Part shown: positions 18,859 through 64,000 of the stretch, piece by piece
How the letters are laid out: each line of letters starts with the position of its first letter
Numbering within the stretch: the first letter of the stretch is position 1
Source of the DNA: Taxawa tesnikishii (nom. ined.)
Lineage: Eukaryota; Ascomycota; Dothideomycetes; Dothideales
Reading direction: 5' to 3'
Assembly (NCBI GenBank): GCA_030247885.1
Contig: JAPDRO010000004.1
Span: forward strand, 558,001 to 622,000
Length of the DNA stretch: 64,000 nucleotides
Made by a program: the position numbers and the translations under genes
Notes under the pieces: generated by a model
Told to the model about the DNA's origin: nothing
Seen by the model: only the letters and a program-made list of their open reading frames with translations
Databases searched by the model: none

Positions 18859-20789
18859 ATGGAGGTCCTGCTCCGCCAATCCCGCGCCATGTGCCCGTTC
18901 TTGCACAAGACCTCGCCTGCCACACTCCGCTCCCTGTCCACCAGCACCGCCGTTCAGCAATGCTCTCCCGGTGGCGGTGCCATGTCGAACCTTCAGATCG
19001 TCGCCCGCCGTTGTCCCATCATGGGAAGGCGCTCGCTGTGCAAAGCTCTCGTGCCGCAAACGCTGCGCTCGCGGGCGCATTCGGTGGCAGCCGTGCTTAC
19101 CACGCCAAGGTTCCGAGGGCCAACCTGCACACTACTAGGCCCGAGAAGGCTCAGGCTGTGGACGTGAACCCAACACGTAGCCATCAGGGTATGTACACTT
19201 CCCGCGTGGATATGGAGAGAGATGGGCTTTAGTTGGTCGCGGGGCTCACGCCGCATCTCTTAGATCGCTACCCTCCACAAGTCAAGCCTGCAGCGCCACG
19301 TGTTGAGGGACAGTTCGCCAGCCCACCCGAACCTCCAAACGTCCCAAAATTCGACTATGATGCTTTCTACCAGAACGAGCTGGAGAAGAAACACAAGGAC
19401 AAGTCCTACCGCTACTTCAACAATATCAATCGTCTGGCTCAGGAGTTCCCTCGTGCCCACATGGCGACCCCAGAGGACAAAGTCACCGTCTGGTGCTCGA
19501 ACGACTACCTCGGAATGGGTCGCAATCCCCAGGTGATCAAGAAGATGCACGAGACTCTGGATACCTACGGAGCCGGCGCTGGAGGAACCAGGAACATCTC
19601 TGGCCACAACCAGCACGCTATGGGGCTTGAGAGCACCATCGCCAAGCTACACGCCAAGGAGGCAGCATTGGTGTTCTCTTCATGCTACGTCGCAAACGAC
19701 GCGACTCTGGCTACCCTGGGCTCCAAATTCCCCGGCTGCGTCATTCTTTCCGACAGCTCAAACCACGCTTCTATGATTCAGGGTATCCGTCACTCTGGCG
19801 CCAAGAAGATGGTGTTCAAGCACAACGACGTGGCCGATCTGGAGGCCAAGCTGGCTTCTTTGCCTCCTGACGTGCCCAAGATCATTGCTTTCGAGAGCGT
19901 ATACAGCATGTGCGGATCCATCGGCCCGATCGAGGAAATCTGCGACCTTGCGGACAAGTACGGCGCCATTACCTTTTTGGATGAGGTCCATGCCGTGGGT
20001 ATGTACGGTCCTCACGGGGCTGGTGTCGCAGAACATCTCGACTACGAGGCCCACGTCAACGGCAAGCCGCTCGGAACCATTATGGACAGAATCGACATCA
20101 TCACTGGTACTCTTGGTAAGGCCTACGGTTGCGTGGGTGGCTACATTGCCGGTTCCGCGAAGATGGTCGACACCATCCGTTCCCTCGCTCCCGGTTTCAT
20201 CTTCACCACCTCGCTGCCTCCGGCGACAATGGCAGGCGCCAAGGCCGCCATCGAGTACCAGATGGCGTACCGAGGCGACCGCCGCCTGCAGCAGCTCCAC
20301 ACCCGCGCGGTCAAGGAGCAGCTGAAGGAGAAGGACATCCCTGTGATCCCGAACCCCAGCCACATCATTCCCGTGCTGGTCGGCAACGCCGAAGTAGCCA
20401 AGAAGGCCTCTGACTTGCTTCTCGAGAACTGGGGCATCTATGTCCAAGCCATCAACTACCCCACCGTACCCGTCGGCCAGGAGCGTCTCCGTATCACCCC
20501 GACTCCGGGCCACGTGCGCGAATTCCGCGACCACTTGGTCACTGCGCTCGACAGCGTGTGGAACGAGTTGGGGTGCAAGAGGACCAGTGACTGGGCTGCG
20601 CAGGGCGGTTTCATTGGTGTTGGAGAGGAGGGAAGGGAGGAGACTGAGCCGCTCTGGACAGATGAGCAGCTTGGCTTGAAGGAGGTCAAGAGCCAGATGA
20701 AGAGCGGGATCGGTGCGCTTAACGTGCTCGAGGGCATTTTGGATCATGAGAGGAAAGAGGTTGCGCAGGCTGTTACTGCTGCCGCTTGA
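18859..20789 (+). CDS. HEM1: 5-aminolevulinate synthase, mitochondrial (HEM1)
   Basis: PLP-dependent enzyme that condenses glycine with succinyl-CoA, the first committed step of haem synthesis, in the mitochondrial matrix. The presequence carries two Cys-Pro haem-regulatory motifs ([10 protein letters not shown] and RRCPIMG), which in this family let haem restrain import or activity. Exon 2 (19264-20789, after a 75-nt intron 19189-19263) encodes the fold-type I core: [34 protein letters not shown], and the PLP lysine in [17 protein letters not shown]. About 618 residues are expected. In the presequence the frame changes at GGGAAGG (19023-19029), where one missing base restores [14 protein letters not shown]. 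Since HEM1 is normally essential for growth, this break is best read as a sequence error. Confidence 0.96.
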
Positions 20790-21330: not shown

Positions 21331-21461
21331 AGCTGAGTGGCGCAGGGGAAGCGTATGTTCAACCCACCACTCCAAACTCACCAACGAATTCATTCACTAA
21401 CAGTCGAGCAGGCGCCGGGCTCATAACCCGGAGGACAATGGATCGAAACCATTCTCAGCTA
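21331..21461 (+). tRNA. Initiator tRNA-Met (CAT) with a spliceosomal-type intron in the D-stem
   Basis: Exon 1 is 21331-21352 (22 nt) and exon 2 is 21412-21461 (50 nt). Joined, they make a perfect 72-nt cloverleaf. The acceptor stem AGCTGAG/CTCAGCT has a discriminator A. The D-stem is GCGC/GCGC with loop AGGGGAA. The anticodon stem CCGGG/CCCGG carries loop CTCATAA (anticodon 21422-21424). The T-stem AATGG/CCATT has the initiator-type loop ATCGAAA. The three G:C pairs and the AxCGAAA loop mark it as initiator, not elongator. A 59-nt insert (21353-21411) splits the 3' strand of the D-stem. It begins GTATGT, contains CTAAC at 21397-21401 and ends GAGCAG. It is not at the canonical 37/38 site. 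The A box (21338-21348) and B box (21440-21450) remain intact on either side. Confidence 0.93.
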
Positions 21462-21475
21462 TGGAGATGGAAGTC

Positions 21476-21481
21476 TTTTTT
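21476..21481 (+). terminator. RNA polymerase III T-run terminator
   Basis: Six consecutive T residues lie 15 nt past the discriminator base of the initiator tRNA. This is the expected Pol III terminator and supports the gene being transcribed through its insert. Confidence 0.85.
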
Positions 21482-21923: not shown

Positions 21924-24900
21924 TCAAATCCGCATCCCCTCCATGATAATTTTATACTCCTTCCTCTTCTTCCCTTTCCCACCCCTCTTCTCATCGACCC
22001 TCTTCTTCGCCTCTCCAATCCACTTGGCCAGTCTGGGAAACAGCAGCCTCTCAGCCGCATAACTGCATGCGAAACCTCCGATCGCCAGTACGAAGATGAA
22101 GATCTTGAAACTCCAGGAGAGGTATGTGAGCTCCATGAGGGAGTAAAGCCATTCGGCGGGGTCGAATAGCATGTATGAAGAGATGGAGAGGGCGACCATC
22201 ATCGTGATTACGAAGGGGACTAATCAGTCTTGTTAGCCGCGTGCCGCCTCGTCTTCATTGGGGTGACTGGAGTGGGGGGGGGGGGGGGCGGGAAGGGCGA
22301 AGGCATGAGTGCCTGAATACACGGCATCGGGAAAAAGGTAACCGCAAGGATAGGAGGCCTGCAACTCACGGTTATGACTCATGCTCTGCCGGAACGGTTT
22401 CCCAACACTGAGCACAATAGCACTTAATATATACTGATAACAGCTGACCAGGAACAGCGTCGTGTTCTCCGAGTTTTCCGAGTTCGAGTGTTCCTTGTCC
22501 AGAACCGGTGGCTGGAACCTGCGGCAAGCATCCGTTGTCAGCAACGCTTTTCTCAACGTCCGTTCACCCATCCCAATGTAGTGTTGAAGCAGAGCTTACC
22601 AAGGTTGATACTGCACGACCTTGAACCCGACCGCCTGCACGAGCACACAGATCACAATCTGTCCCAGCAGTGGAGTGAGGACCTTGCGCGACACCAAGCT
22701 CGCTGTCGGCCTCTTGCGGCTCAGCACGGGATACGCGCCCGTCCAGCCCATAAAGATGGCAATCGGCAGAATCAGCGCCAGATCAATATACAAGAATTGA
22801 AAGTCCCCCAGATTGCTTGCACTCGCATACAAAAAGCTGACACTCGTAAACTGAATCGCAGAATACAAGCTCATGTACTTGAAGCAGGAGAAGGAGGTGA
22901 CGAGGGCGGCGCGACCCTCGCGGATGACCTCGGGCACACACGAGATGTCGAAGACGCGGCTGGTGAACGGGGCCGCGACGCTGGCTTCGGCTTCGGAGAG
23001 TGAGATGCCGACGTCCGCGGCTTTGAGGGCGCCGCAGTCGTTTGCGCCGTCGCCACAGAAACCAGCGCAGTAGTCTATGCTCTGCAGCTTTTCGATGAGC
23101 TCGCTTTTTCGTCGGGGGACATGCGCGCGAAGACTTGCCCGCACACGAGCATTTCGCGGAGCACTTTGGGGTTGGCGAAGTCGACGATCCAGCGGAATAC
23201 GTCGCCGCTGACTGCGACGGAGTAGTTGCGCAGATTGGAGACGTCGTAGGGGAGCGAGGAGTCGTGCTCGGCGGGTGGAGGGAGCGGTTTCAGTGTGTTC
23301 TCGTCGAGTTGGTAGATCGGATTGTCCACGCTCTCCCAACTCAGGCGAGAAAGCGGTGTCCGCGCATCACCTTCGAGGAAGTGCGGGACGAAGCAATGCG
23401 CGGATTTGTCGATCAAGCCGCACTCCCTGGCGACGCTGATAGCGGTGAGGATGTTGTCACCCGTGCACATCACAGTGCGGATGTTGGCCTCGTGTAGCTC
23501 GTCTATGATGCCAGCCGTAGTCGGCTTGAGCTTGTTCTCAAAGATGATGAATCCGACGAATTCCAGATCCGACTCTGCTTCTTCGCGCTTCATCTTCTGA
23601 ACCTTTAGCCAATTCAATTTGAAGATGTGCTTCGTGGCGCATCCGATGACACGGAATCCACGGTGTGTGTAGAAGCTCAGCAGTTCTTCGTAATCGGCGG
23701 GGAAGCTGTCCGGACGGCAGATCTCTTTCATGACCTCGGGAGCACCTTTGACGTAGATGTCTCCGCTGGGATCTCCGAACTGGCGAACGATGACGCTAGC
23801 ACGGCGCAGATGAGAGACGAATTCGAAAGACTTGAGCACACCAAGCTCGATCGGACGCTTGCTGTTGGGCGAGCTCTGCTCTTCATCGAGATCGAATTCC
23901 ATACCAGGGGCGGACGCGCAACCGAAGGGGAGAGGGAGTTTTGTTCGTCTTCGTCTGTGGCACCAGTCCTTTCCGAACCTTCTTCGAACTGCCAGCCAGT
24001 GAATTGAAACATCTTCAGATCCAGTGGGTCTCCAATGAATTCATCATCCACAATTCGCAGGGAGTGGCAAGTGGCCATCGTGTACATAATGGCCTTGTTC
24101 GCATTGTAGTCAACGGTCGGGTCACGTTCATAGGTGGCTCCCGGTAACAACGTGGACGATTCGTTGAGAATCTCGCTGAACCGATTCGCGGGCCGTTGGA
24201 CAACACGTACGCCTAGGACATCCAACCCATCCTCCGTCAGTGTCCCTGTCTTATCAAAAGTAATGACATCCAGTTTGCCTCCCACGTTGACTCTCTGAGG
24301 GCTAATGCAGAAAATGAGTTTCTGCTTCAACCGGGAAAGCGCAAAGTTGGTGCCGATTGTTAGAGTCGCTGGAAGTGCAGGCGGTACCACGATGGTGATC
24401 AGATCCAGTGCACGAACGATGATGAGATGCCAGGCAAGGCCGAGACGGACGAAGTTGATGAAAGAAGCGATGAACCCGATCCCTGCAATTCCGGCCATGA
24501 CGGAGATATACCTGAACGAATCGCGGTAGAACTTGAAGCCCGATGGCTTGGGGAAAAGCATGGACCTAACCAACGCGCCCTTGGTTGTGTTAAAACCAGT
24601 GCGGACAACGAGCGCCAATGCCGCTGCTTCGTCGCTCTTGTCGTCTTGCGGCTTGCGTGCTCGGATGATCTTGGTACCGCTGAACAAGAAATGCCTCGCG
24701 ACTTCCGGATGCATGGATGAAGCGCTAAGGTTGAGCAGTTCCAGGGACTCGTCGGTGGCAGGTGTCTTCGAAACAGGAACCGATTCTCCAGTAAGCATAC
24801 TCTCGTTGACAATGCAATCACCCGAGAGAAGAAAGCTGTCGCATGGGAATTGCGTGAGGCTCGGATCAGTGACCTCGTAGACGTCTCCAGGCACAAGGTC

Positions 24901-42767: not shown

Positions 42768-44612
42768 ATGTCTTCCCACATCACAACCAATGGCTTCGAC
42801 CAATCGATACCTCACCAGCAGGAAAAAATCTCCCGGGCGGCGGCAACTGGGTCGTGCAAAATTCGGTGGGACCAGCGTCGGAAAGTTCGCGGTCCAGATA
42901 GCGGAGGATATTGTGCTGTAAGCCAGTCACTTGGACAAGAGACGGGAGAGAGGAGAGAGAGGGGAGAGAAGGGAGAGGAAGCAGGGGAGAGAGGTACAAG
43001 GGCTGGGTGTATGGGTTTGTGCTGAATACAACAGAGCAGGTCTCAAGGAACGGCGCATCGCGGTCGTCTGCTCGGCGCGCAGCACTTATACTAAGAGCGA
43101 GGGAACTACGAATCGGTGAGCCGCTCGAGCCGGTACACTTTCTCTGCAGCGTTGTTATACTGACATTGGTGATTTGCAAAGGCTCCTCCGCGCCGCGCGT
43201 GAGGCCGAAAAGGCCACCTCCCGCAAGTATGTCGATATCGTGGAAGTCATTCGTCTGGACCACATCGCCTGCGCCAGGGACACTATCCGCTCCGCAGACA
43301 TCCTCGACCGTTACACGCTCAGCGTCAACGAGGAATGCGCGACCCTGGTCAAGATTCTGGAGTCCGCACAACACCTTGCTGAAGTCAGCTTGCGGACCGA
43401 GGACAAGATTGTTGCCAAGGGCGAGAAGCTCTCCTGTTTGTACATGACAGCGCTGCTGGAAGATCGCGGCGCGAAGGCCGCATACGTCGATCTCAGCGAC
43501 ATCATAAACTTCGACGTCTCAAGGGGCGTAGACGACGAATTCTACAAACATCTCGCCCTTCGCCTAGCGGAAGTCGTTCTGGCTTGCGAAGATGCCGTGC
43601 CCGTCATTACCGGCTACTTCGGCAATGTTCCAGGAGGTCTCCTCACGCAAATCGGCCGTGGCTACACAGACCTCTGCGCTGCCCTCGTAGCCGTCGGTCT
43701 CCGCGCCTCCGAACTCCAAATCTGGAAAGAAGTCAACGGCATCTTCACCGCCGACCCACGCAAAGTGCCTACGGCACGCCTGCTCGAATCCGTAACCCCT
43801 TCCGAAGCCGCCGAACTGACCTTCTACGGCTCCGAGGTCATCCACCCTTTCACTATGGACCAAGTGATCCGGGCCAGCATCCCGATCCGGATCAAGAACG
43901 TCAAGAACCCACGCGGCCAGGGCACAGTCGTGCTCCCCGACGCTCTGGACGCCGCCATCGGCAAGAAACCCGCCCTGTTCCGTAATCGTAGCGTCAGTAA
44001 TCTGAGTACGAATGGTGCGAGGCCCAGACGTCCCACAGCCGTGACCGTGAAGCGCGGTATCACGGTCCTGAACGTGCACTCGAAAAACGCACGCGCGCGC
44101 ACGGCTTCCTCATGTCCATCTTCTCCATCTTAGACAAGTGGTCCCTCTCCGTGGACCTCATCTCCTCATCCGAAGTGCACGTGTCCATGGCGCTGCACTC
44201 CGAGGTAGCGCTGCTCTCGGGTAGCGGACCGGAGGAGATGAAGATTGAGAGCGAAGCACTGAAGGGCGCGGTTGAAGATCTGAACCGGTTGGGCGATATT
44301 GATTTGGTGCCGAATATGGCGGTCATCAGCCTCATCGGAAGTCAGCTTAAGAGTATGATTGGTGTGGCGGGCAAGTTTTTTCGACGCTGGGGGAGGCGGA
44401 GATCAATATTCAGTTGATCAGGTACGTAGTCCTCCCTGCGTCGGTCGGTCCAAGTCGCTTTGCAGCAGTCGTTCACTTGTGTTGGGGACTGACTTCTTCC
44501 TTACAGCCAAGGCGCTTCCGAGATCAATATCTCCTGCGTCATCGAGGCCTCCGAGGCCAACAGGGCGCTGAACGTTGTACACACGAATCTGTTTACATTC
44601 CTGGAAGAGTAA
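42768..44612 (+). CDS. HOM3: Aspartokinase (HOM3)
   Basis: Phosphorylates aspartate, the entry to threonine, methionine and homoserine synthesis; fungal forms are feedback-inhibited by threonine. The start MSSHITTNGFDQSIP leads to the kinase signature VVQKFGGTSVGKFAVQIAED. After an intron come RIAVVCSARS, GYFGNVPGGLLTQIGRGYTD, KEVNGIFTADPRKVPTARLL and FYGSEVIHPFTMDQVI. Two ACT-type regulatory domains follow (ITVLNVHSKK..., then EINISCVIEASEANRALNVV), ending FTFLEE. Four frame changes lie at A- or T-runs: 42833-42838, 42858-42861, 44083-44087 and 44376-44381. Each is explained by one missing base. The clustering of four such breaks in one intact-looking enzyme is strong evidence for consensus errors. 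Confidence 0.93.
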
Positions 44613-50824: not shown

Positions 50825-52239
50825 AGCAAAACGATGCGATCGTGTCCATCATGTTCCAATTAGGGGTATTCCCTTTCAGATCTGCGAGAAGATCACCATT
50901 CGCGATAGGAATGACTGGCAGTGGGTGTCGCTACTGCTAGCATGAGACTAGCATCGGACACGTCTACGATTGTATCGAAGGTCGCTAGCTTCATCGACCA
51001 TCCTATGGCGAGATTAGTGGAAGCAATCTTCGCAGGAGAAGCTAAAATCTTGTCGGGTGCGGCCTTGGCTATGGGTAAATGTTCGTCTGATTCCGAAGCA
51101 CTGGCGTCGCTGATTTGTGGCGTGTACAGATAACCGAGACATCATTGTCGAGGTTGGTGAGAAGGCTGTGTCGTTGATCAGAAAGATCTAGCAGTTGCGC
51201 ACGTTCGGCGCCAGTGGATTGAGAAGTGTATAAAGGGGCAAAACCATAAGAAAACTCGAGAGTATGATGTAGGTGTACCGAGCAAGATGTAGAACATACT
51301 GGGCAGAATTGAGAGGAACAAGATCCGTTTATCCTAGGGTGTACCTTGAGACCTTGTGGTCAGTGCAGCATGGCACTCTTGAATGAAAAGCCTTGTGTGT
51401 TAGGATGCAAGGATCGCGTGCATGTGATTTTTTCGGTAAGATATACTATGGAATCCCCTAGTCCCACGAAGGATAGCAGAGCGGCTCAACGCTTAGACGC
51501 AATTTCACGTGGTCAATCATGTGCTGCGCGGCGTACTCATCACTTTACTTTCCGTGTCGACATCGATTGTTTACCCCTGATTGATCGTGACAATCCCATA
51601 CCAAGACGTCTGCTTCTCTCTGAAGGTTCTCAGCCGCTATTTGGGACGCCTTTGGCAGCGTTGTATCGAATTTCGGGTCTGGCTAAGAATTGTGCCGACA
51701 ACAAAATGTCAAAAACAAAGATGGATTTGGAAGAGCAGATGCGACGCGGGTTGAGGCGCGCATGAACTGACGCGTACGGAAGAGCGTTTTAGTCAGCGGT
51801 AATCTACATCTTTCCTAACGCCGCCGAAGCACGTCTTAACGGATGAACTCAGTCGACTGCATCGGACTGCTACAGGCGATGCAATGATGTAGATGCCCAC
51901 ATAGCTTCAGAAGTACACAGCCTGCAGATAGCTCCACAACGGCTGCCGTCGCCAACAAAAACCCCCACGCTCAAAATAGCCCATGAGGCATCGCACTGCC
52001 ACTTCGGTCCGGTTAAGAGTTACAACATTCCACATTTCCTTCTCAAACGCCTTTTGATCTTTGGCAACCATGAATCTCAGATTCAGGCTTCTCATGCAGG
52101 GCGAGTCGCTGAGCTGCCTGTTTGGCGTCGTCCCACGCATGGCTATGTAAGACCTCCCATGCACGGCTCGGGCTATACAAAGACACGGCAAGCACGCCAC
52201 CAATTTTGACATTACATCTAGTGCCGAATTGATGGGTTA
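50825..52239. other. Gene-poor border region before the AT-rich block
   Basis: Normal base composition but no recognisable gene. Frames at 50921-51133 (plus), 51346-51765 (plus, no ATG at its start) and 51907-52212 (minus, ATG-led, Cys-rich start MSKLVACLPCLCIARAVHGR) have no family resemblance that I can see. The last one abuts the composition boundary and could be a truncated gene. Confidence 0.4.
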
Positions 52240-55200
52240 CTAATACCGTCCCTGCTTACGAAGGGTAAGTAAGAGGTCTAGTGAAGCTTAGCTAGTCGCT
52301 ACTAGGGCATACTTTGCTTACAAGCTAATAATAAGATGTATATATACGCTTGGTTTTAGTAAACTACTCCTTGAATGTTATAATAGTTAGTAATACTACT
52401 AATATAAGTAACTTACGCGGGCTCTAATAATAGTCTATTTCTCTTTAACTATAATATATTTAAAGTATAATAAAACTATATAGTATTAAAGTAAATATTA
52501 TTATAATTATCTCAAGTATTTTAGTTACCTATATATTACGTAATTATAATATAATTTAATATACTAAAGAACTTATAAGTATAAGTTAAAGTTATATAGT
52601 TTTTTATAATTAATCTTAAGCTTTATATAGTTTAAATAAAGACTTATTAAAAGATTTATTATTATTATTATATATAATAATAAGGTTAATTAATAAAGGT
52701 ATATAAACTAATAAATTAAAAGTATAATTATAATTAATAAGATACTCTTAAATCCTTCTATTTTATATAAAAGTCTTCTTTATATTTGTTATTTATTTAT
52801 TTATTTTATTAACTTTTATATTTACTTAAAATTACTTTAAAACTAACGTGTTTTATTACTAAGTAGTTTACTATTACTAAGTAGTTTACCCTTATTAATA
52901 TTGCGACTATTATAAACTATTACTTTTATATTATAATACTATATAAAAATATACTTTAGTTTATAGTACTATTTAAAAGTATTACTATTATTTAGATCTA
53001 CTATTTTTATAATATAAGTACGCGTATTATAGTTAGTTTTACTTTAATATTTATAATACTTTTATATATATACTCTCTTCGTAAGCTATTTAGTACCCTC
53101 GTTATTACTATTATCTTTATTAGTTATTAAATCCTATATATTACTTACTATAAGACTTTCTTTTATTTAAATATACTTTCTTTTATAATTATATTACATT
53201 ATTAACGCCTTAATTAACTTTTAAAGACTTATAATTTCTCTTATTTATAACTTTAATTTATAACTTATAATAGCTATACCTTTAGTAAGTAAATTTATAA
53301 CTTATAAAAGAGGCGAAATAAGTAAATTTCTATATAGTTATATACGCTTATAAACTAGCGTTATTTACGCCTTTATTTCCTTAGGATTAGCTAGTATTTT
53401 AGACTCCTATAAGGTAACTTTTAATAGTATAAGTATAAGCGTATAAAGTACTATATTAAGCTTTAATAGTATTATAGTAGAAAGAACCTTATATTAAGTT
53501 AAGTTAAGACTATAAAAGGAAGCTACGTAAGTAGTAATAGAGATAGTAGTAAATAATAAGATAATAGTAAAACCTAAAGTAAAGTAGTTATTAATTAAAT
53601 AAGTAACTATCTTATATATAAATTAAATAAGTAGAAATTAAAGGTAACTTCTACGTAACTAATAACTTATAACTATCTAGTAGTTACCTTACTATATACT
53701 TCCCTTTCCTCTTAAGTACTTATCTCTTAAGTACTATATAAACTATACTTATTATATATCTTTAGAAGTTATATAATCTACCTATTTATTAAGGAAAGAT
53801 AAGAGTAAAAACTAGCGAGGGTAATATAAATAACTACTTTAGTTAAGATAAGTAACTAAGATAAGACTCCTAGTTAGTATCTATATTAAAAGCTCTATTA
53901 TAAGAGCTTTCGCTAAAATTATTCTTATTAGAAATATTTGTCGCTAATTCTTTTCCTTTACCTTTACTATTAGTATCCTTTTCGAAACTTTCTTTTAAAC
54001 TAATAAACTCTATTAACTTATTATTTAAAGAGACTTTATTATATCCTTACTTATAGTAATTATAAGACTTTATTAAATAGTACTAAGCCTTAGTATTTAT
54101 CGTTATATAGAAGTAAATATAGAACTTATATATAGCGTTAGTATAATACTTATTAATAAACTTCTTACGCTTTTTATTATTAGTATTAAAAAGGATAGTA
54201 TACTTAGTTATAGTATAAGAGTTTACTTATATAATACGTCCTATAATTACTTAAGATACTACGCTATTTATAATATAGGGGACGACTATTAAAAAAGCAT
54301 ACGTAATCGTACTATATATCTAAGGATATTTAAAAAGCGTAAATAAAAGTAAAGTAAGCTTTAAGTAACTAAGAGTAAGAGTAGTTTAATTATTAGCTCT
54401 AATATTAATTTCTAAAGTACTAAGGTCCTCTTTAATAGTTATATACTATAAGAATACTATTACTCTCTTCTTAACTAGTCCTCTATTAGAACTATAAAGG
54501 AAGTATAGTAGGGTAATACGTACCTCCTTAACTTTATAAGAAACTTCCTCTTATTATAAGCTATACTTTTCTTTATCTTCCTTACTTTAGATCTTATTAT
54601 TAATACGAATAATAACTCTACTAAAGGTCTTATTACTATTACGCTCCTATACGTTATACTACTATTCTTTAAAATACTAGTAAATACCTTTAATTAAGAC
54701 TATATAATTATTCTTTATCTTATCTATTAGGGACATAGTTCCTTAGATTATATTAGTACTATTACTAACTAAAAGATAGTTTAAATAGTTATTTAAGTAA
54801 TAGAATTTAGTCTTACTAGCTCTAGTTACGTACTTATAGTAATATAAGTAGGAAACTAACTATTAATTATAATTAGGCTATAAGTATATATAAGCTAAAT
54901 AGTATAGTATATCTTAATAGATAACTTACTAAGTATAGTTATAATAGGTATTATATAACTAGCTTTAATCGAATTAACTAGTAAGAAAACGAAGATAATA
55001 CTTATATATAGTAAACTCTTTTAGTATATCCTTTATAAGGTCCTCTTTAAATAACTAGTCGAATATATTAATATTAATAGTACTATCCTTTTAAAACTAG
55101 TTATAAGTACTTAGAAAAATAGACTTTATAACGGCTTTATAATCGTATTTTTTAGCTAGAGGAATATAATATTAATATCTATAGAGACTATAAGTATTAA

Positions 55201-57219
55201 AAGTATAAGCTAACTTACGAAACTTATAAAATTAATTTATAGTCTTAGAGTTAGTTCTAAGCTTAAAAGCTTTACTAAATAAAAACTCTCTTATATATAT
55301 AATTAGCTACTTCCTACTAAGGGCTTTAATATAGTATTTAGCTTTTTAATAAAGTCGAAAAAGTATACTTTATAGAATACTTTATTATCCTTATTAATAG
55401 TATAAAGTACCTTCTTTATTAAGTTAGTAATATTAGGATCTAATATCTTACTTAGGAGTTAATTAATCTCCTTTTAAAGAGCTTTATATTCCCTATTAAT
55501 TTAGTAACTATAGCTACTTTTCTTCTTTAAAGTTATTTCCTTTATATTTTCCTTATATTACTCTTTCTCCTCCTTTAAATTAAATAAGATAGAATCCTTA
55601 AGTATCTTATTATCGTTTATATTCTTATAGAGATTATTACCGAGGTTACGAGTATTTTATTTACTAAGATTATTATATAAATTAGTAAGAGTATTTAGAT
55701 CCTAGTTAAGAAGTATATTAACTATTATCTTATACTTACGTTCCTCTACTTCCTCTTCTTTAATCTTACGTCTTACTCCTTTTAAAAGTAATAAAAGGGA
55801 GAGCTTTCTAGTATAAGTATATTCGTATTATTAATATTTATAAGTAAGATATAAGCGTAGCTACTATATAATAGTTTAATATTAGTAACTTTATAAACTT
55901 TTCCTTACTTATTAATAGTATATCTTAGTATAATTAGGTACTTATATTCTCCTTAATTAAGCGGTAGATATTTCTTAAAGTACTCTTTAATGTTTTTTAA
56001 GTCCTTAAGTTAAAATAGTTAACTCTTTTTAAAACCTTTACTTTTAGTATAATTATAATATATATACTTATAAAGGAATACGTAAACTACTTACTTTATA
56101 GTAAACTCCTTTTAACTAACTATCTTATCTTAAAGAAGATTATACTATTAAAGTTAAACTAAAATATATTTATATTTTTCGTAATTTACTATAAGTTATA
56201 AAGAGTTTTCTTAGCTTTTACTTACTTACTTCTTCTATTAAGAAGAAGTCTTTTAATTAGATAGTATCCTTAAAGTCTTCTTAACAGTTTAGTTTAAAGG
56301 TTATTTTTCTCTTATAGTAGTCCTATAGTAGTAGGGACTAGTATTTACTTAGTCTTTCTTCTTCTTAGGAGATTTTATTACTTAAGTTAAAGACTACGTA
56401 GTAGTATTTATTGTTATTACTAATCCTCTTTACTTCTTTAAATACTTAGTAAAATAACTTAGAAATTAAAACGATAAGGTTATTAACTTTAGTAGTATTA
56501 ATAACTTAACTACTAAGTAAGTTAAGTTATAATATAATAAGTCGTAAGTATAATTAGACTTTAATAAGTATATAGTAAGGAAATATTATCTTTTAGTAAG
56601 TTTTTAAGGTATTTATAACTACTATACTTACGAATCGTAGTAGCGTTATTAGTTATAGCTTTAAGGCATAGTTTCTAAAGGATTTATAGTTTAGTATATA
56701 AATTTAGATATTTATTACGTATTTTACTTCCTTAAAGGGAAATATAACTAATATTCGAAGATTTTAGTTTTAAAAGTATCTTTCCTTTTACTTCTTTCTT
56801 ATTACTCCTTATTACTACTATTACTTAATCCTTTTAACTTATAGTATAAAAGGAATATCTTTTATATAAATATAAACTTCTTATTCTATAAGCTTTACGC
56901 TTTTATTTAGTAATAAAGTAAAACTATTATCTTAAGTAAATAAATAAAGGCCTTATTACGAAAGGGGAATATAAAAATAGTAGAGAAATAAATAATAAAA
57001 GAGATTATTAAGAGAGTTAATAAAGGAAATTATCTAAAGAAATAAATAAAAAAATTATTAAAATAATATAGAAATATACTTCCCTTTCTTTATAACGTAA
57101 ACTAGAAAGTAATAAAATAGGTAAAGTAATAGAATACTTAAACGCAACTCTTTTAGCTTTAACTACTATTTATATACTATAATAATAATATAATTAAAGT
57201 CTAAGTTACTTACTATAAC

Positions 57220-58860
57220 TTCTACTTCTTCTTCTTTATTACTCTTAAGCGTCTCCTTAATTAAGCGCTTACGTAGTTATTTACGTAGCTTTTTAGTTAA
57301 TAATTTTACTTTTATTACTTTAACTATTTTAAGTACTTCTTTTATACTAAATATAAACTTCCCTTTTAATACGACTTACTTACCCTTCTTTCGAGTCTTT
57401 TATATATTAAGAAGCTTTTCTTATTCTTTTACTTACTTACGTAAAGTAATAAGCTTACTATATATTACTTTAAAAGCGTAAGTTATTTACTTTATATACT
57501 ACTTCGCTAAGGATAGAGCCTCTTAAATCGCCTTAATTATAAAGTTAAATAGCGCGTTTACTTTACGTAGCTTAGTACTATTTAGTAGTAAGCTATAAAG
57601 TAGTAATAAGTCTAGATCGAGTTATTATAGTAGTATATAAGGCTATAAATTTACTATAGTTAACTTTATAAGTAACTTATTAAGTACTATTATAAAGCTT
57701 AGAAGTATAAGTTTAGCTCCTCTTTATTTACTAAGGATATTATAAGTAGTAAGAACTCTAGTTCTTACGCTAATATATATCTCCGTCTATTTTACGCGTA
57801 ATATATAGCTAAAGTCGACTTATAAAGTTACGTTAGTTTTTAAAGTTAACGCGCGCTTTAGTAAAGTAAATATGCTAATACTAAGTAGCTAGAGTATATA
57901 CGAGTAATAAGGTAGTAAGATAAGTAAGTTAATTATATTTTATATATAGAAAGTAATTACCTTTATAATTATATAGTTATTATAGCTATCTATAATTAGT
58001 AGTTACTATATTATAGGGTCCTTTAGTTATATTAAAGGCTTAAAAATAGTAGTAAGTTACTTATAACTATAATTATTAAACGTCTAGTTACTACTACTAG
58101 TTAAAAACCTCTAGTTTAAAGGTATATATACGAGTACTTACGCTATATTAATATATTTAGTCTTAAAGATAATTAAGGGTAGTATAGCTTCCTTAGTAGT
58201 ATTTATATACTTAATTACTATTATTTACTCCCCTTAGCTTTCGACTTACTTTTAATTAAATACCTTACGTATATTAACTAATACTCTTAATAACTAACTT
58301 ACTTTAACTATAAAGTTAAACTCGTCTATATTATAAACGCGCTTTAAAGGATAATTATATTTTATAAATAACTTTATTATTACGTTAAACTACCTCTTTA
58401 TAGCGTTATAACTTATCGCGTTAAAGTATATACTCTTAATTTAACGAGTCTATATACTAGCGATCTTAAGATAGTAAGTCTTAAAGTAGTCGAGCTACTT
58501 CTTACTAATTAGTTAAGAAGGAAGTTATAAAGTCCTTAATAGTTATATATATTTATAATAAATTTCTTCGACTATTTATAATATTAACGTAAGCGAAGTA
58601 GGAAAGCTAGTACGTATAAGATATATAACTTATTTAACTAATATCTTCTCTTTTATATTCGAGAGGATTTACTTTATTTTATACGTTATAGAGCGCGAAG
58701 TATATTTAGTTATATAATTTTAAAGCGTAGTACTCGGAATATTAAACGCTTTACTAGCTTTATAAACTAATATATATTCCTTTCTATTTAAGGTAGAGAT
58801 AGTATTTTAAATATTAGCTTTAATATAAATAGGTTTATTAAGTATAGAAGTACTTATAGT
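57220..58860 (-). mobile_element. Pogo/Fot-like (Tc1-mariner) DNA transposon fossil
   Basis: Despite RIP, the minus strand keeps the order of a fungal pogo-like transposase. A CENP-B-type helix-turn-helix region lies at about 58.85-58.45 kb. The first acidic motif follows near 58,320 (YNIDEF-like, where intact relatives have YNMDESGF). An IIDSYNNYI-like strand, the second catalytic aspartate region, lies near 58.0 kb, and a LLKRAL-like stretch near 57.85 kb matches the VFxPLKRAL segment of the family. A lysine-rich tail follows. Many stops from RIP break every frame. Terminal inverted repeats and the TA target duplication could not be identified because the flanks are themselves TA-rich. Confidence 0.6.
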
Positions 58861-59299
58861 AAGTAGTAACTACGTTATAAAGTAAAGAAGTTATATTTAA
58901 GTATTTTATTACTTTACTTATTTTATTACCCCGCGGTTTACATTAAGTTTATCCTTAGACTTAAGTTTTTATATAACTCTTAAAGCTATATAAAACCTAG
59001 CCTATTAGCTAGCTAACTACTTTATATAATCCTCGTATTATAATAAATCGAATCCTTATAGTATACTAATAATTACTTTTAAACTTATATCTCTAATATT
59101 TATAGGTAATTTATCTTTTAATTTCTCGTCTTATAAATTAATTTTTAATTCTTTATTCTTAGGTAAAAGTATACTACCTTTAGTAGCTACTAACCGATCT
59201 TATAGCTATTTAAGTATAGTTAGGAAGATAGGCCGAATTTATAGTTTTAGTTAATTTCGAGTATAAGTCCCCTTTATTTTAATACTATCTAAGGTTTCT

Positions 59300-62200
59300 A
59301 ATACGTAAGTACTTATAAGGGTAATACTTTCAATTTTAAAAGGACTATACTATCGAAATAGTAGCTTATCTCTTTAGATTTTCTTACGTTTTATATTATA
59401 AATAAGGACTTCTTATTTAACGTTTAACTATTTAAACGTAGTATTTTTTTAATTATTAAATTCCTTTACGTTTTACTTTCGTATTTACTATTAATATAGT
59501 AGTATATCTTCTAGAACTTTATCTTAGTATATTAACTATTATACGCTTATAACTACTAGATTTATAGTAGTTTTAATAGTACTTTAGTTTAGTACTTATT
59601 ATAATAGGAATTTTAGTTTAATTAAAAGAACGATATTTCTTTTATATAGGATTTATATTAGAGATATATTAATAGATCGCCTTAGCGTAATTTAGTCTAC
59701 TTATAAAGTTTCTAGTAATTATATATCTTAAGGCTTACTAAACTTAAAAGTAAGCTTTAATAAGTAATTAATAAGGTTCAAATATTTGCGTTTTATTAAT
59801 CTATTACCTTTAAGATAATAAGTAAAAGTAATAATCTTTTAAATTTTATATTATATAGCTAATATAAATATATAGTTAAAGTTCTTAAGTCCTTCGTTAT
59901 TAATTAGTTTAGTAAAGTACTTATATTTATAAATAATATCCTTATAAAGGAATCTTATAATAGTCTAGCTATTAGGCTTACGTAATACTCTAGCCTCTAG
60001 CTACTTTAATACTAATTTTCTAATAATAACGAGGTATTCTTTACTATTAAATATAAGTATAAAAATAATATTTACTAACTATACTTCTCTAAGGACTTAC
60101 TAATAAACCGAATATAATTCTTTTATATTCTTATAGTTAGTACGTATCTAGTACTCTAAGTAGCCTACGTAGTATTTAGAAATATCTTTAAAGGTATTAT
60201 TTTACTAGTAATAGTTAGTAACCTTTTTATAAGTAGCCTCTTATTCTTAGTAGCTACTTCTATTATATAGACTTTAAATAATCTTTTGCCTTTAATCTTT
60301 ATTATTAATTACTTATTATAGTAGTATATTCCTAGTATTTCTCCGAAATAAATACTAACTATAAACTAGATAGTTAAGCGCTTCTTTCTTAAATAGGTAA
60401 AATTCCTTAAGATTTATAGTTATAAGCTTTTTAAAGTCGTAAGGTATTTTACTATTCTCTAAGATTTCTCTAAGTAACCTTTTACTAACGATATTTTAAT
60501 AGTAGCCGCTATAGTTATAAAGTATATTTTAATACTCTCGTTAACTATAATAGTATATATAAAAGTAGTAAATAAATTTACGTTAATAACTACGTTAATA
60601 TCTTACTTATTTAATATATTATTATTATTTAAAGAATAGTAAGGTCTTTAAGATAATATATTTATAGTAGTATATTTAATACTAAGTATATATCGAACTT
60701 TAAATATAAATAGTCGTATCTAAGCTACCTATTAAGCTATAATAAAACTAGGAAGATCCGAGGATAATTTATTAAGTTACGCTACTAGTATTTTAGTATT
60801 AATTTCTAAGATAAAGAATACGTTATATAAATATAAGCGTACTTTCTTTAGGGCTTTAAGTACTCCTCTATATTCGCGTTTTTTAGTATTATAGCTAGAT
60901 TTTATAGTCGTTTAAAAGTCGCTTTTATATTATATTAAATATTATTTCTTTTTATTATTTCTAGCTAACTATATTAAGATAGCTCCCTATTTATAAAGGT
61001 TAGAATCTACGGCTAAAATAATAGATCCTACTCCTTTAGTATAATTAATAGACTTTAGTACTAGAGTATTAGTAAGCTTCGCCTTTAGTAGCTTAACGAC
61101 TTATTTAACTAGTTTTTTAAAGGAAAATACTACGTCTTTTTATATAAGTTTATATAGTAGTACTACTATATATATAAAGTTTTTACTTAGAGATAATAGT
61201 ATAAGCTTAAGTTAAGAAATACTCGAATATCTATAATATTCTTAAATTTATCTTATTTTAAGATCTTAATAACCTTAGTAGTATTTAAATATTTACCTTC
61301 TAAGTTATAAATATAGTTAATAATCTTAATTCTAAATATATAAAATTAGGATTTTCCTTTAGTAATAGTATAGCTAGTACGTTTTAAATTTATAAGAATA
61401 CTATTTAACTAATAAATATACTTTAAAACGTATTTCCGAATACTAAGTACTACTTCTATATTTCCTTCTTTATTAACCGAGCCTTTAATATTAATATTAT
61501 TTAGAAATAGTAATACTACGTATAAAATATACGCTTCTAAGATTTTAGTAATAATTCTTACGAACTACGCTACTAAGTTAATAGCTCCTTAAAGTAGCGT
61601 CGTTTATCTTAATAGTCTTAAAGGAGTTATAAATCCTATTATATCTCTATATTTTATAGTAAGTTCTATCTAATTATATTTAAAGAAGAAGTCGATAAGG
61701 AACGTTATTATAAGTCCTATAAACTACTCGCTAAATTCATTTAAATTTAAGGGTAGATTTCTATTATAAATAGTAATATAGTTAATATTTATAACTATAT
61801 TAATAATATAGAACTTATTCTACTCCTTCTTAGTAATAAGAAACTATAGATTCTAATATAGGCTATAATAGTATTTTAGTAATCTTACCTTTAGTCGTTC
61901 TTATAATATTTTTATAATCTTCGGAATTATTACTTTAAGTACTAAGAACCCTAGGACTTACTATACTTTATAAGGTATTATTTTAATCTCTTAGAGTAGT
62001 ACTATATTTAGTTTAACCTTACCGATTTCTAAAAAGTCTTATATTAGTATTACTTCCTTATTATATAGTATTTTAAAGAGTAAATCCTTTTCCTTTAGCT
62101 ATAGTTATTCTCTAACTTATAGTTTTATAATATACTCTTAATTAAGGTAAGTACTACGTCGTATCTTAGAGAATTTTAAAATAAGCTATTATTCGTACTA

Positions 62201-62300
62201 TCCTTATAGTTATAAGAGTAGTTTCTCCTTAGTTAATACTCTTTCCTTCTAGTTAATAAGTCCTCTTAAAGTTAAATTATTAAATAAGGATAAATTAACT
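59300..62300 (-). mobile_element. Ty3/Gypsy LTR retrotransposon pol fossil
   Basis: A heavily RIP-broken pol region on the minus strand. Reverse transcriptase lies around 61.4-62.1 kb (the segment near 61,700 still resembles the EFSEEF...SLIDFFSGYDQ region of fungal Gypsy elements). RNase H is probable near 60.5-61.3 kb and integrase near 59.5-60.3 kb. The domain order RT-RH-IN is that of Metaviridae. The element is old and non-functional, with many breaks throughout. Its LTRs could not be found. The TRIM at 62.67 kb lies just upstream, possibly inside the same fossil. Confidence 0.6.
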
Positions 62301-62672
62301 AAATTAATCTTATTTACTTTACGCTTATATAGTATCCTTATATATATTATATTATCTTTTCCCTAGCTTTTTAGAAAAGAGCGTCCTCGCCCTTAAGTTA
62401 AATTAATAATATAGTCTAAATCGAATCTCTTAGTTATTTAAAACTTAGAAGTACGTAAGTCTTTACGCTAATTAAGAAGGAAGACTATAAGTAAGCTTTC
62501 TTAATAGTAAAAGTCTTTTATATTATTACGCGCTTATACGCTTTTAATTAGTATCTTTAGTCTATTGTTACTCGATTATTTTAATAGTATTAAAGTAAAT
62601 ACGAAATAGAAATTTAACGTAGAAAATCTAGACCTTAAATTTATAGAAATCTTAGACCTTAAATTTAGTAGG

Positions 62673-62748
62673 TTTTAACTTGTGACAAAAGTGATGTCAC
62701 GTGAGCATCTACTCTTGTATACCTTAGGTAGGGTTATACATGTTAACA
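62673..62748 (-). repeat. 3' terminal repeat of the TRIM
   Basis: 76 bp, identical to 62971-63046, next to the left copy of the GTAGG target duplication. Confidence 0.85.
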
Positions 62749-62970
62749 CTCCCCTAACCCTAGTAAGGGGTACAAGCGTGCAACGTCGCTAATGGATTCG
62801 AGGCTCGCAACCTTCCGGGCTTATTGGCCGACTCCGCGGCTTGCCGAGGCTCTACTCCCGTTTGGGATTTTACGCGCTTCTGCCACAACTCAGGTGGGAA
62901 TCGAACTCGTGACCTTCTGTCGTACATCGAGATCACGATTTAACCAACGCGCTAACCCGGGCTCATAACC

Positions 62971-63046
62971 TTTTAACTTGTGACAAAAGTGATGTCACGT
63001 GAGCATCTACTCTTGTATACCTTAGGTAGGGTTATACATGTTAACA
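62971..63046 (-). repeat. 5' terminal repeat of the TRIM
   Basis: 76 bp, identical to 62673-62748. It starts TGTTAACA on the minus strand and abuts the primer-binding site without a gap. The non-canonical other end (GTTAAAA rather than ...CA) is set by the position of the GTAGG duplication. Confidence 0.85.
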
Positions 63047-64000
63047 GTAGGAAAATTTCGAACTTTAAATTACTTTACTTTCTTAGTAGTAACTACTAGC
63101 TAATTATATTTATATAGCTCTTAAAGCTATATAAAGTCCTACTAACTTTCTCGCTAAGTACTTTACTAATATATAATATTACGCTTATATTTATATATGT
63201 TATTATTTTCCTTTCTTTTACTAGTTTAGTTAACGAGGTAAAAGCCTTACTAATAGAGGAGTTACTTATACTTTTCTCTATGTTATAAATATAAGTACTA
63301 AAGAATAGTTTAGTATTTCCTTAGCTATACGATTTTAATTTATATAAGGGAGTATGCCGACGAAAGAAGTAGTAATATTACTAATTAAGTCCTATATACT
63401 ACCTTCCTAAGTACTATTATTATAATTAATAGCCTTTAGTTTAAATATTCGTTCCTACGGTTATCTTAAAATAATTTTACTAAGTAGCTAGTTTATAATT
63501 AAGAAACTATATAGAATCTTAATACCTCTTATATTAACTATAACGTCTTAAGTAATTCCTTTAAACGTTCCCTCTTTAGTAGTTTCTTTTAATATAAGAC
63601 TTAGTTTATTATTAATAAGGATCCTTAACTACTTTATAGTAGTAATACTTATTAAGTTACATTTTATATTAGAGTTAATAAGAGCTTAGAAAATACTAGT
63701 ATAATTATTTAATGCGATATTAATATATAGACTACTAGTATAAATAAGGGATTATTTAATAGCTATAAACTCGCTAGTTTTTATATTATTAGAGGCTTAT
63801 ATTACTAAAGGGTCGGCCTATAGTAATTAAATATATACTTCCTCTTATTCTTTATTATATAAAGTAATAGTTTATCTTTATAATTAGCCTTTTAACTTAA
63901 ACTTACCTTTCTACGTAAGGCTAGTATTACTTACTAATACGTAGCGTACTATTAGTTTTACTTTATTTTTATCTTCCTAGTTAGTATCTCTAACGTAAGT

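Follow-up and report, generated by a model that had tools for sequence, protein, structure and literature searches.

The window analysed here, a stretch of 64,000 nucleotides (nt) of contig JAPDRO010000004.1 (positions 558,001 to 622,000 of the forward strand; contig C29 below), comes from Taxawa tesnikishii JES_119, described in its genome report as a desert soil-crust black yeast of the Dothideales (PMC11195213). It carries an initiator tRNA-Met gene at 21331-21461, whose D-stem is interrupted by a GT-AG insert bearing the donor, branch and acceptor signals of an mRNA intron (Table 1). The gene is flanked on one side by an ALAS gene (plus strand, about 18859-20786; its product matches a Taxawa tesnikishii ALAS protein with 100% identity at 98% coverage) and on the other by a gene for an ATP13A-type P-type ATPase (minus strand, about 26088-21927). 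A gene of this kind is easily overlooked by programs that search for tRNAs: ARAGORN at default settings found no tRNA in the window and, with introns allowed, called this gene tRNA-Gly. The Rfam tRNA model gave one match in the window (32.5 bits, 21402-21461), the first ten bases of which lie inside the insert. tRNAscan-SE 2.0 is described as handling noncanonical introns in archaea (PMC8450103).

Removal of the insert joins 22 and 50 nt into a 72-nt initiator tRNA in which 21 of 21 cloverleaf pairs form, and this cloverleaf is the minimum-energy fold of the 72-mer (-27.0 kcal/mol). Eukaryotic initiator tRNA-Met is marked by A1:U72, G:C pairs at 29-31:39-41, A54, A60 and the anticodon CAU, and all of these marks are present in the spliced 72-mers of the window gene and of a second copy on contig C1. 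A54 is also given in PMC3978253. Only two excision registers yield this 72-nt product from the window gene, GT..AG and TA..GG. The insert breaks the 3' strand of the D-stem, leaving on its 5' side what we take, from the box consensus, to be the A box, and on its 3' side the B box. These features, together with the perfect cloverleaf, the three splice signals and the T6 run, had been proposed in a preliminary description of the locus and are borne out by the sequence. Folding predictions for this RNA give a mean D-stem pair probability of 0.92 for the spliced form versus 0.01 for the unspliced one.

Across the genome the spliced 72-mer matches three loci, on contigs C29, C1 and C11, and every one of them is interrupted in the D-stem. 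The C1 gene has two inserts, in the order AGCTGAGTGGC, 53-nt insert, GCAGCGGAAGC, 54-nt insert and 50-nt exon, with the signals GTATGT..CTGAC..TAG and GTAAGC..TTAAC..TAG, respectively; the C11 gene has a single 54-nt insert after nt 11 (GTATGT..CTAAC..CAG). The 11/12 and 22/23 sites are opposed across the D-stem, and both fall between GC and GC. The exons of the C29 and C1 genes agree at 71 of 72 nt, differing at nt 16 (G in C29, C in C1), and both spliced products form all 21 pairs. Their inserts after nt 22 agree in 37 of 62 aligned columns, and blastn at E<=1 finds no match between the flanks of the three loci. As judged from these comparisons, the initiator product is preserved while its inserts and surroundings change, a pattern that we read as selection on the product.

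Four kinds of whole-genome search, run on a genome copy of 34 contigs and 29,367,862 bases, found no initiator gene that lacks an insert. A pattern for the initiator 3' half, with up to three mismatches, found the three loci at 0 mismatches and two other places at 3 (reversed control, 3 places). The uninterrupted D-arm core had no exact genomic match; with up to two mismatches it occurred at 199 places, which is the level of the control (182), and one of the six places at one mismatch was the window's own gene. The initiator B box was present at 17 places, three being the initiator genes and the other 14 holding no tRNA by ARAGORN or the covariance model, and a scan of viral contigs for the initiator 3' end returned 0 matches. 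On these searches we reject the presence in the assembly of an initiator gene without an insert, which, if it supplied all initiator tRNA while the window locus gave no spliced product, would by the preliminary description have marked a dead copy. That description was right about the insert in the window; it had not seen that the other two copies are interrupted, one of them twice, nor that six elongator genes carry inserts. A cytosolic initiator tRNA is essential to any eukaryote, so with all three loci interrupted at least one interrupted gene must be matured.

The six elongator genes encode tRNAs for leucine (three genes), alanine, isoleucine and histidine (Table 1). Altogether we parsed 68 nuclear tRNA genes: in 59, all called by ARAGORN, the D arm has no insert, and the remaining nine hold ten inserts (49-59 nt; nine GT-AG and one GC-AG). 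For all interrupted elongators but Ala, an uninterrupted paralog is present that is identical to the spliced form over its first 30 nt (5/5), so that in these five genes the insert ends can be read directly. Gene lengths and comparison with paralogs indicate that every one of the six except Ile has retained an anticodon-region intron as well. Introns of that kind are very common in this genome, ARAGORN placing one in 52 of the 59 parsed genes that lack a D-arm insert. Having the same tRNA with and without an insert in one genome provides natural empty sites for the study of intron gain and loss.

Table 1. Features of the interrupted initiator tRNA-Met gene (window coordinates) and inserts in elongator tRNA genes
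Feature	Position	Strand	Basis or signals
Initiator tRNA-Met exon 1 (nt 1-22: acceptor 5' strand, D-arm to GC)	21331..21352	+	sequence
Putative mRNA-type (GT-AG) intron, 59 nt, 3' strand of D-stem	21353..21411	+	passes combined intron test
5' splice site GTATGT	21353..21358	+	sequence; the ALAS intron at 19189 opens with the same hexamer
Branch-point motif CTAAC, branch A at 21400, 11 nt from intron end	21397..21401	+	only YTRAY of the insert
3' splice site CAG	21409..21411	+	sequence
Initiator tRNA-Met exon 2 (nt 23-72: remaining D-stem, anticodon CAT, T-arm, acceptor 3' strand)	21412..21461	+	50/50 identical to C1 copy
Presumed A box TGGCGCAGGGG, intact in C29 copy	21338..21348	+	read from sequence
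B box GGATCGAAACC	21440..21450	+	initiator B-box search
T6 run, probable Pol III terminator	21476..21481	+	sequence
Leu-TAA, contig C8	57-nt insert, after nt 12		GTAAGT..CTAAC..AAG
Leu-CAA, contig C31	53-nt insert, after nt 15		GCAAGA..CTGAC..CAG
Leu-CAG, contig C29 near 198778	53-nt insert, after nt 15		GTAAGC..TTAAC..CAG
Ala-TGC, contig C3	54-nt insert, after nt 18		GTACGT..CTAAC..TAG
Ile-AAT, contig C33	54-nt insert, after nt 18		GTGCGT..CTAAT..CAG
His-GTG, contig C33	49-nt insert, after nt 9		GTTAGT..CTAAC..CAG

The tRNA genes were gathered by several routes. An initial survey with RF00005 spent most of its scored places on organellar tRNAs. The B-box sample comprised 75 of the first 100 listed places (270 in all) with GGTTCGANNCC, on contigs C1-C11 and with typical T-loops first, and yielded 18 tRNA genes (17 by ARAGORN plus L086), two of them carrying inserts; outside this sample the survey is biased towards genes that standard models recognise. 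Matches to 3' exons were also followed, 40 of 66 candidates being scored. Three kinds of candidate were set aside: L048, flagged over 248 nt by a loose acceptor/T-arm parser with which neither ARAGORN nor the covariance model agrees; L089/L153, a 3' fragment of a tRNA whose 5' half is not found in the vicinity; and the Lys-like L151. Two of the 59 genes without a D-arm insert (L133 and L163) contain an intron-like stretch of at least 35 nt by a loose pattern, and its removal would leave too little for a tRNA.

Each of the ten inserts has a single YTRAY within 40 nt of its end, with the A 10-12 nt from the end. They lie after nt 9, 11, 12, 15, 18 or 22, that is, in the A box or D arm, and none is at 37/38; a bias of the inserts towards the 5' half is suggested, not proven, by these positions, as the methods of finding would miss inserts in the T-arm. 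A strict donor/branch/acceptor test, devised after the inserts had been seen and one that the GC-AG insert would fail, was passed by all four initiator inserts versus 73 of 2,000,000 random length-matched segments, a rate on which we reject a chance GT-AG match. In a looser form, applied within +/-4 nt to the anticodon-region introns as placed by ARAGORN, which misplaces some of them, the test was passed by 0 of 52. By ARAGORN's reckoning these introns reach 40 nt, shorter than any of the inserts.

Three U6 genes were found in this genome (L012, L013 and L014, on contigs C19, C23 and C33), each with an mRNA-type intron (GTAAGC..CAG) of 51, 55 or 56 nt; all three pass the intron test, with the branch A 11-12 nt from the end, a spacing shared with the tRNA inserts. 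The three U6 introns occupy one site, between CCCCTGCACT and AAGGATG. mRNA-type U6 introns are also found in other fungi. The U6 intron of fission yeast, like the inserts described here, is a U2-type intron in a short structured RNA gene transcribed by RNA polymerase III (Pol III) (PMC10484740). U6 differs in being itself a spliceosomal RNA, with an intron explained by nearness to the catalytic site, whereas the Taxawa inserts have tRNA hosts and occur at several sites and in several tRNAs. Spliceosomal introns are likewise reported in other fungal non-coding structural RNA genes, namely ascomycete ribosomal DNA and the Rhodotorula U2 gene (PMC2586383); the host RNAs are different ones, and we met no tRNA case among them.

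Taken together, the genome provides strong evidence that its tRNA genes hold U2-type introns, and from it we infer their splicing. We consider it very probable that the window locus is a working Pol III initiator tRNA-Met gene with a U2-type spliceosomal intron, that the other initiator loci are alike, that the supply of start-codon tRNA needs the spliceosome and that some pre-tRNAs are doubly processed. It is also probable that spliceosomal introns colonised the D arm and A-box region of several tRNA genes and left no intron-free initiator gene, so tying initiation to spliceosome capacity and requiring some pre-tRNAs to be spliced twice. In such a scheme, Pol III would transcribe the initiator gene from its A and B boxes to the T-run; the D-stem of the precursor could not form before the 59-nt insert leaves; the major spliceosome would excise the insert through GTATGT, CTAAC and CAG; and the tRNA would then fold and its ends be trimmed. 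Since all three initiator loci are interrupted alike and no uninterrupted copy was found, the dependence of start-codon tRNA on the spliceosome, already envisaged in the preliminary description, gains support. In some elongators splicing by the Sen endonuclease would also be needed to complete the tRNA, because the D-arm insert and the anticodon-region intron of five genes would put two splicing systems to work on one pre-tRNA.

Several observations weigh against this reading. The likeness of the insert signals to the organism's own mRNA introns, also claimed at the outset, holds, though not for every branch motif: six mRNA introns of the window, taken from spliced alignments (the remaining GT-AG gaps were discarded because they lacked support or probably were artefacts of frameshifts, and 44422-44506, among those retained, was placed by eye), begin with similar donors (GTATGT, GTAAGC twice, GTGAGT, GTGAGC and GTACGT) and four of them pass the whole intron test, while two fail its branch part. 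The C11 copy forms only 18 of 21 pairs and may be decaying, and the T-loop of the interrupted His copy is altered, so some insert-bearing copies may be dead. The D-stem pair probability is 0.09 spliced and 0.01 unspliced in C1 and 0.00 in both forms in C11, and thus the argument from folding is good for the window gene only. The first insert of C1 and the insert of C11 divide the A box, although the donor still leaves TGGCGTA. The tRNA survey is partial, with 68 genes parsed versus the 197 tRNA genes given in the genome report (PMC11195213), and an uninterrupted initiator copy could lie in unassembled sequence. Finally, the basis of the reading is the DNA of one genome.

The split A box bears on whether Pol III makes these precursors at all. 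The inserts could be spliceosomal and the tRNA precursors come from Pol II or from read-through of a neighbour, for which speak the insert after nt 11 (11/12) in C1 and C11 and the hexamer CACGTG, present within 120 nt upstream in three of the six insert-bearing genes tested versus one of 18 others (one of these 18, the Gly gene L041, was anchored at the wrong place). In the three insert-bearing genes concerned (L010, L131 and L132) CACGTG sits 16-26 nt upstream. We nevertheless judge this unlikely: the B boxes are retained, T6, T7 and T5 runs follow the C29, C1 and C11 genes, the A box of C29 is intact, and in fission yeast a Pol III RNA, U6, is reported to be spliced (PMC10484740).

It is very unlikely, in our view, that the insert-bearing genes are dead and that an uninterrupted initiator gene lies outside the assembly, as the three broken pairs of C11 and the T-loop of the His copy might suggest. 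All three initiator loci found are interrupted, and C29 and C1 combine full pairing and near-identical exons with unrelated flanks. Furthermore, donor, branch and acceptor are kept in ten of ten inserts, as they would not be in dead genes. The published assembly has 38 scaffolds, 29,383,553 bp, 55 telomeres and a BUSCO score of 97.4% for Illumina and 92.9% for Nanopore data (PMC11195213).

A third possibility, that the Sen endonuclease excises the inserts as ectopic tRNA introns and tRNA ligase seals the exons, has hardly any likelihood. In its favour, ectopic D-arm introns do exist in Cyanidioschyzon and nucleomorphs (PMC4090602). The bulge-helix-bulge (BHB) score gives no argument against it, since it does not separate the inserts from ordinary anticodon introns, of which just 3 of 26 reach a score of 3 or higher; the initiator inserts form 1-2 of the four central pairs at the splice register. 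However, no insert has all four central pairs there, the yeast enzyme is reported to cut at 37/38 only (PMC4033280), and the D-arm site, the length and the fixed spacing of donor, branch and acceptor all set the inserts apart from the anticodon-region introns. On position and splice signals we likewise reject a Sen-type intron. Canonical Sen introns are also found in nuclear tRNA genes, including five of the six interrupted elongators, and the inserts differ from them in those same respects. The ectopic introns of Cyanidioschyzon merolae and of cryptophyte nucleomorphs resemble the inserts in their D-arm site and in sometimes occurring several per gene; they differ in being 3-24 nt long in Guillardia and BHB-dependent in Cyanidioschyzon, and the part of the source consulted describes no spliceosomal signals for them (PMC4090602).

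As to where the spliceosomal introns favoured here came from, reverse splicing is possible. The sole hint is that the Leu-CAG insert weakly resembles the initiator insert of C29 (0/300 shuffles and 1/3000 dinucleotide shuffles, one pair flagged among 45). An introner-like family was considered for the four initiator inserts and rejected, their genomic matches lying only at their own three loci.

The textbook division assigns tRNA introns to protein enzymes and mRNA introns to the spliceosome, and a tRNA matured only by the spliceosome, if true, breaks it. A 2026 review states that tRNA splicing relies on protein enzymes and not on the spliceosome (PMC13149111). Our literature search found no report of spliceosomal introns in tRNA genes, in agreement with the preliminary description, which knew of none in a fungal initiator; most subscription journals were outside the scope of the search, and an earlier report may exist. 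The finding is thus a known intron type in a class of host genes for which no earlier report was found. If true, start-codon tRNA would read out splicing capacity directly, and a connection of splicing with the initiation of translation could be put to the test.

No insert is seen in the matches to two other structural RNAs: the signal recognition particle RNA match covers its model within 260 nt, and of 1720 candidates for 5S the 47 that were scored cover the 5S model within 99-122 nt. At three places (C16:450266-450392, C12:67435-67563 and C14:74165-74290) a tRNA-Gly gene comes 5-8 nt after a 5S rRNA gene on the same strand, resembling a dicistronic Pol III unit; the 5S match at C12 is slightly below the Rfam cut-off. 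Within the window, frame shifts without a convincing intron occur in the ATP13A gene near 23908 and in an aspartokinase gene at 44015-44052, perhaps assembly indels, and at 52001-64000 the GC content drops from about 54% to 23-25%, an AT-rich block that is perhaps centromeric or affected by repeat-induced point mutation.
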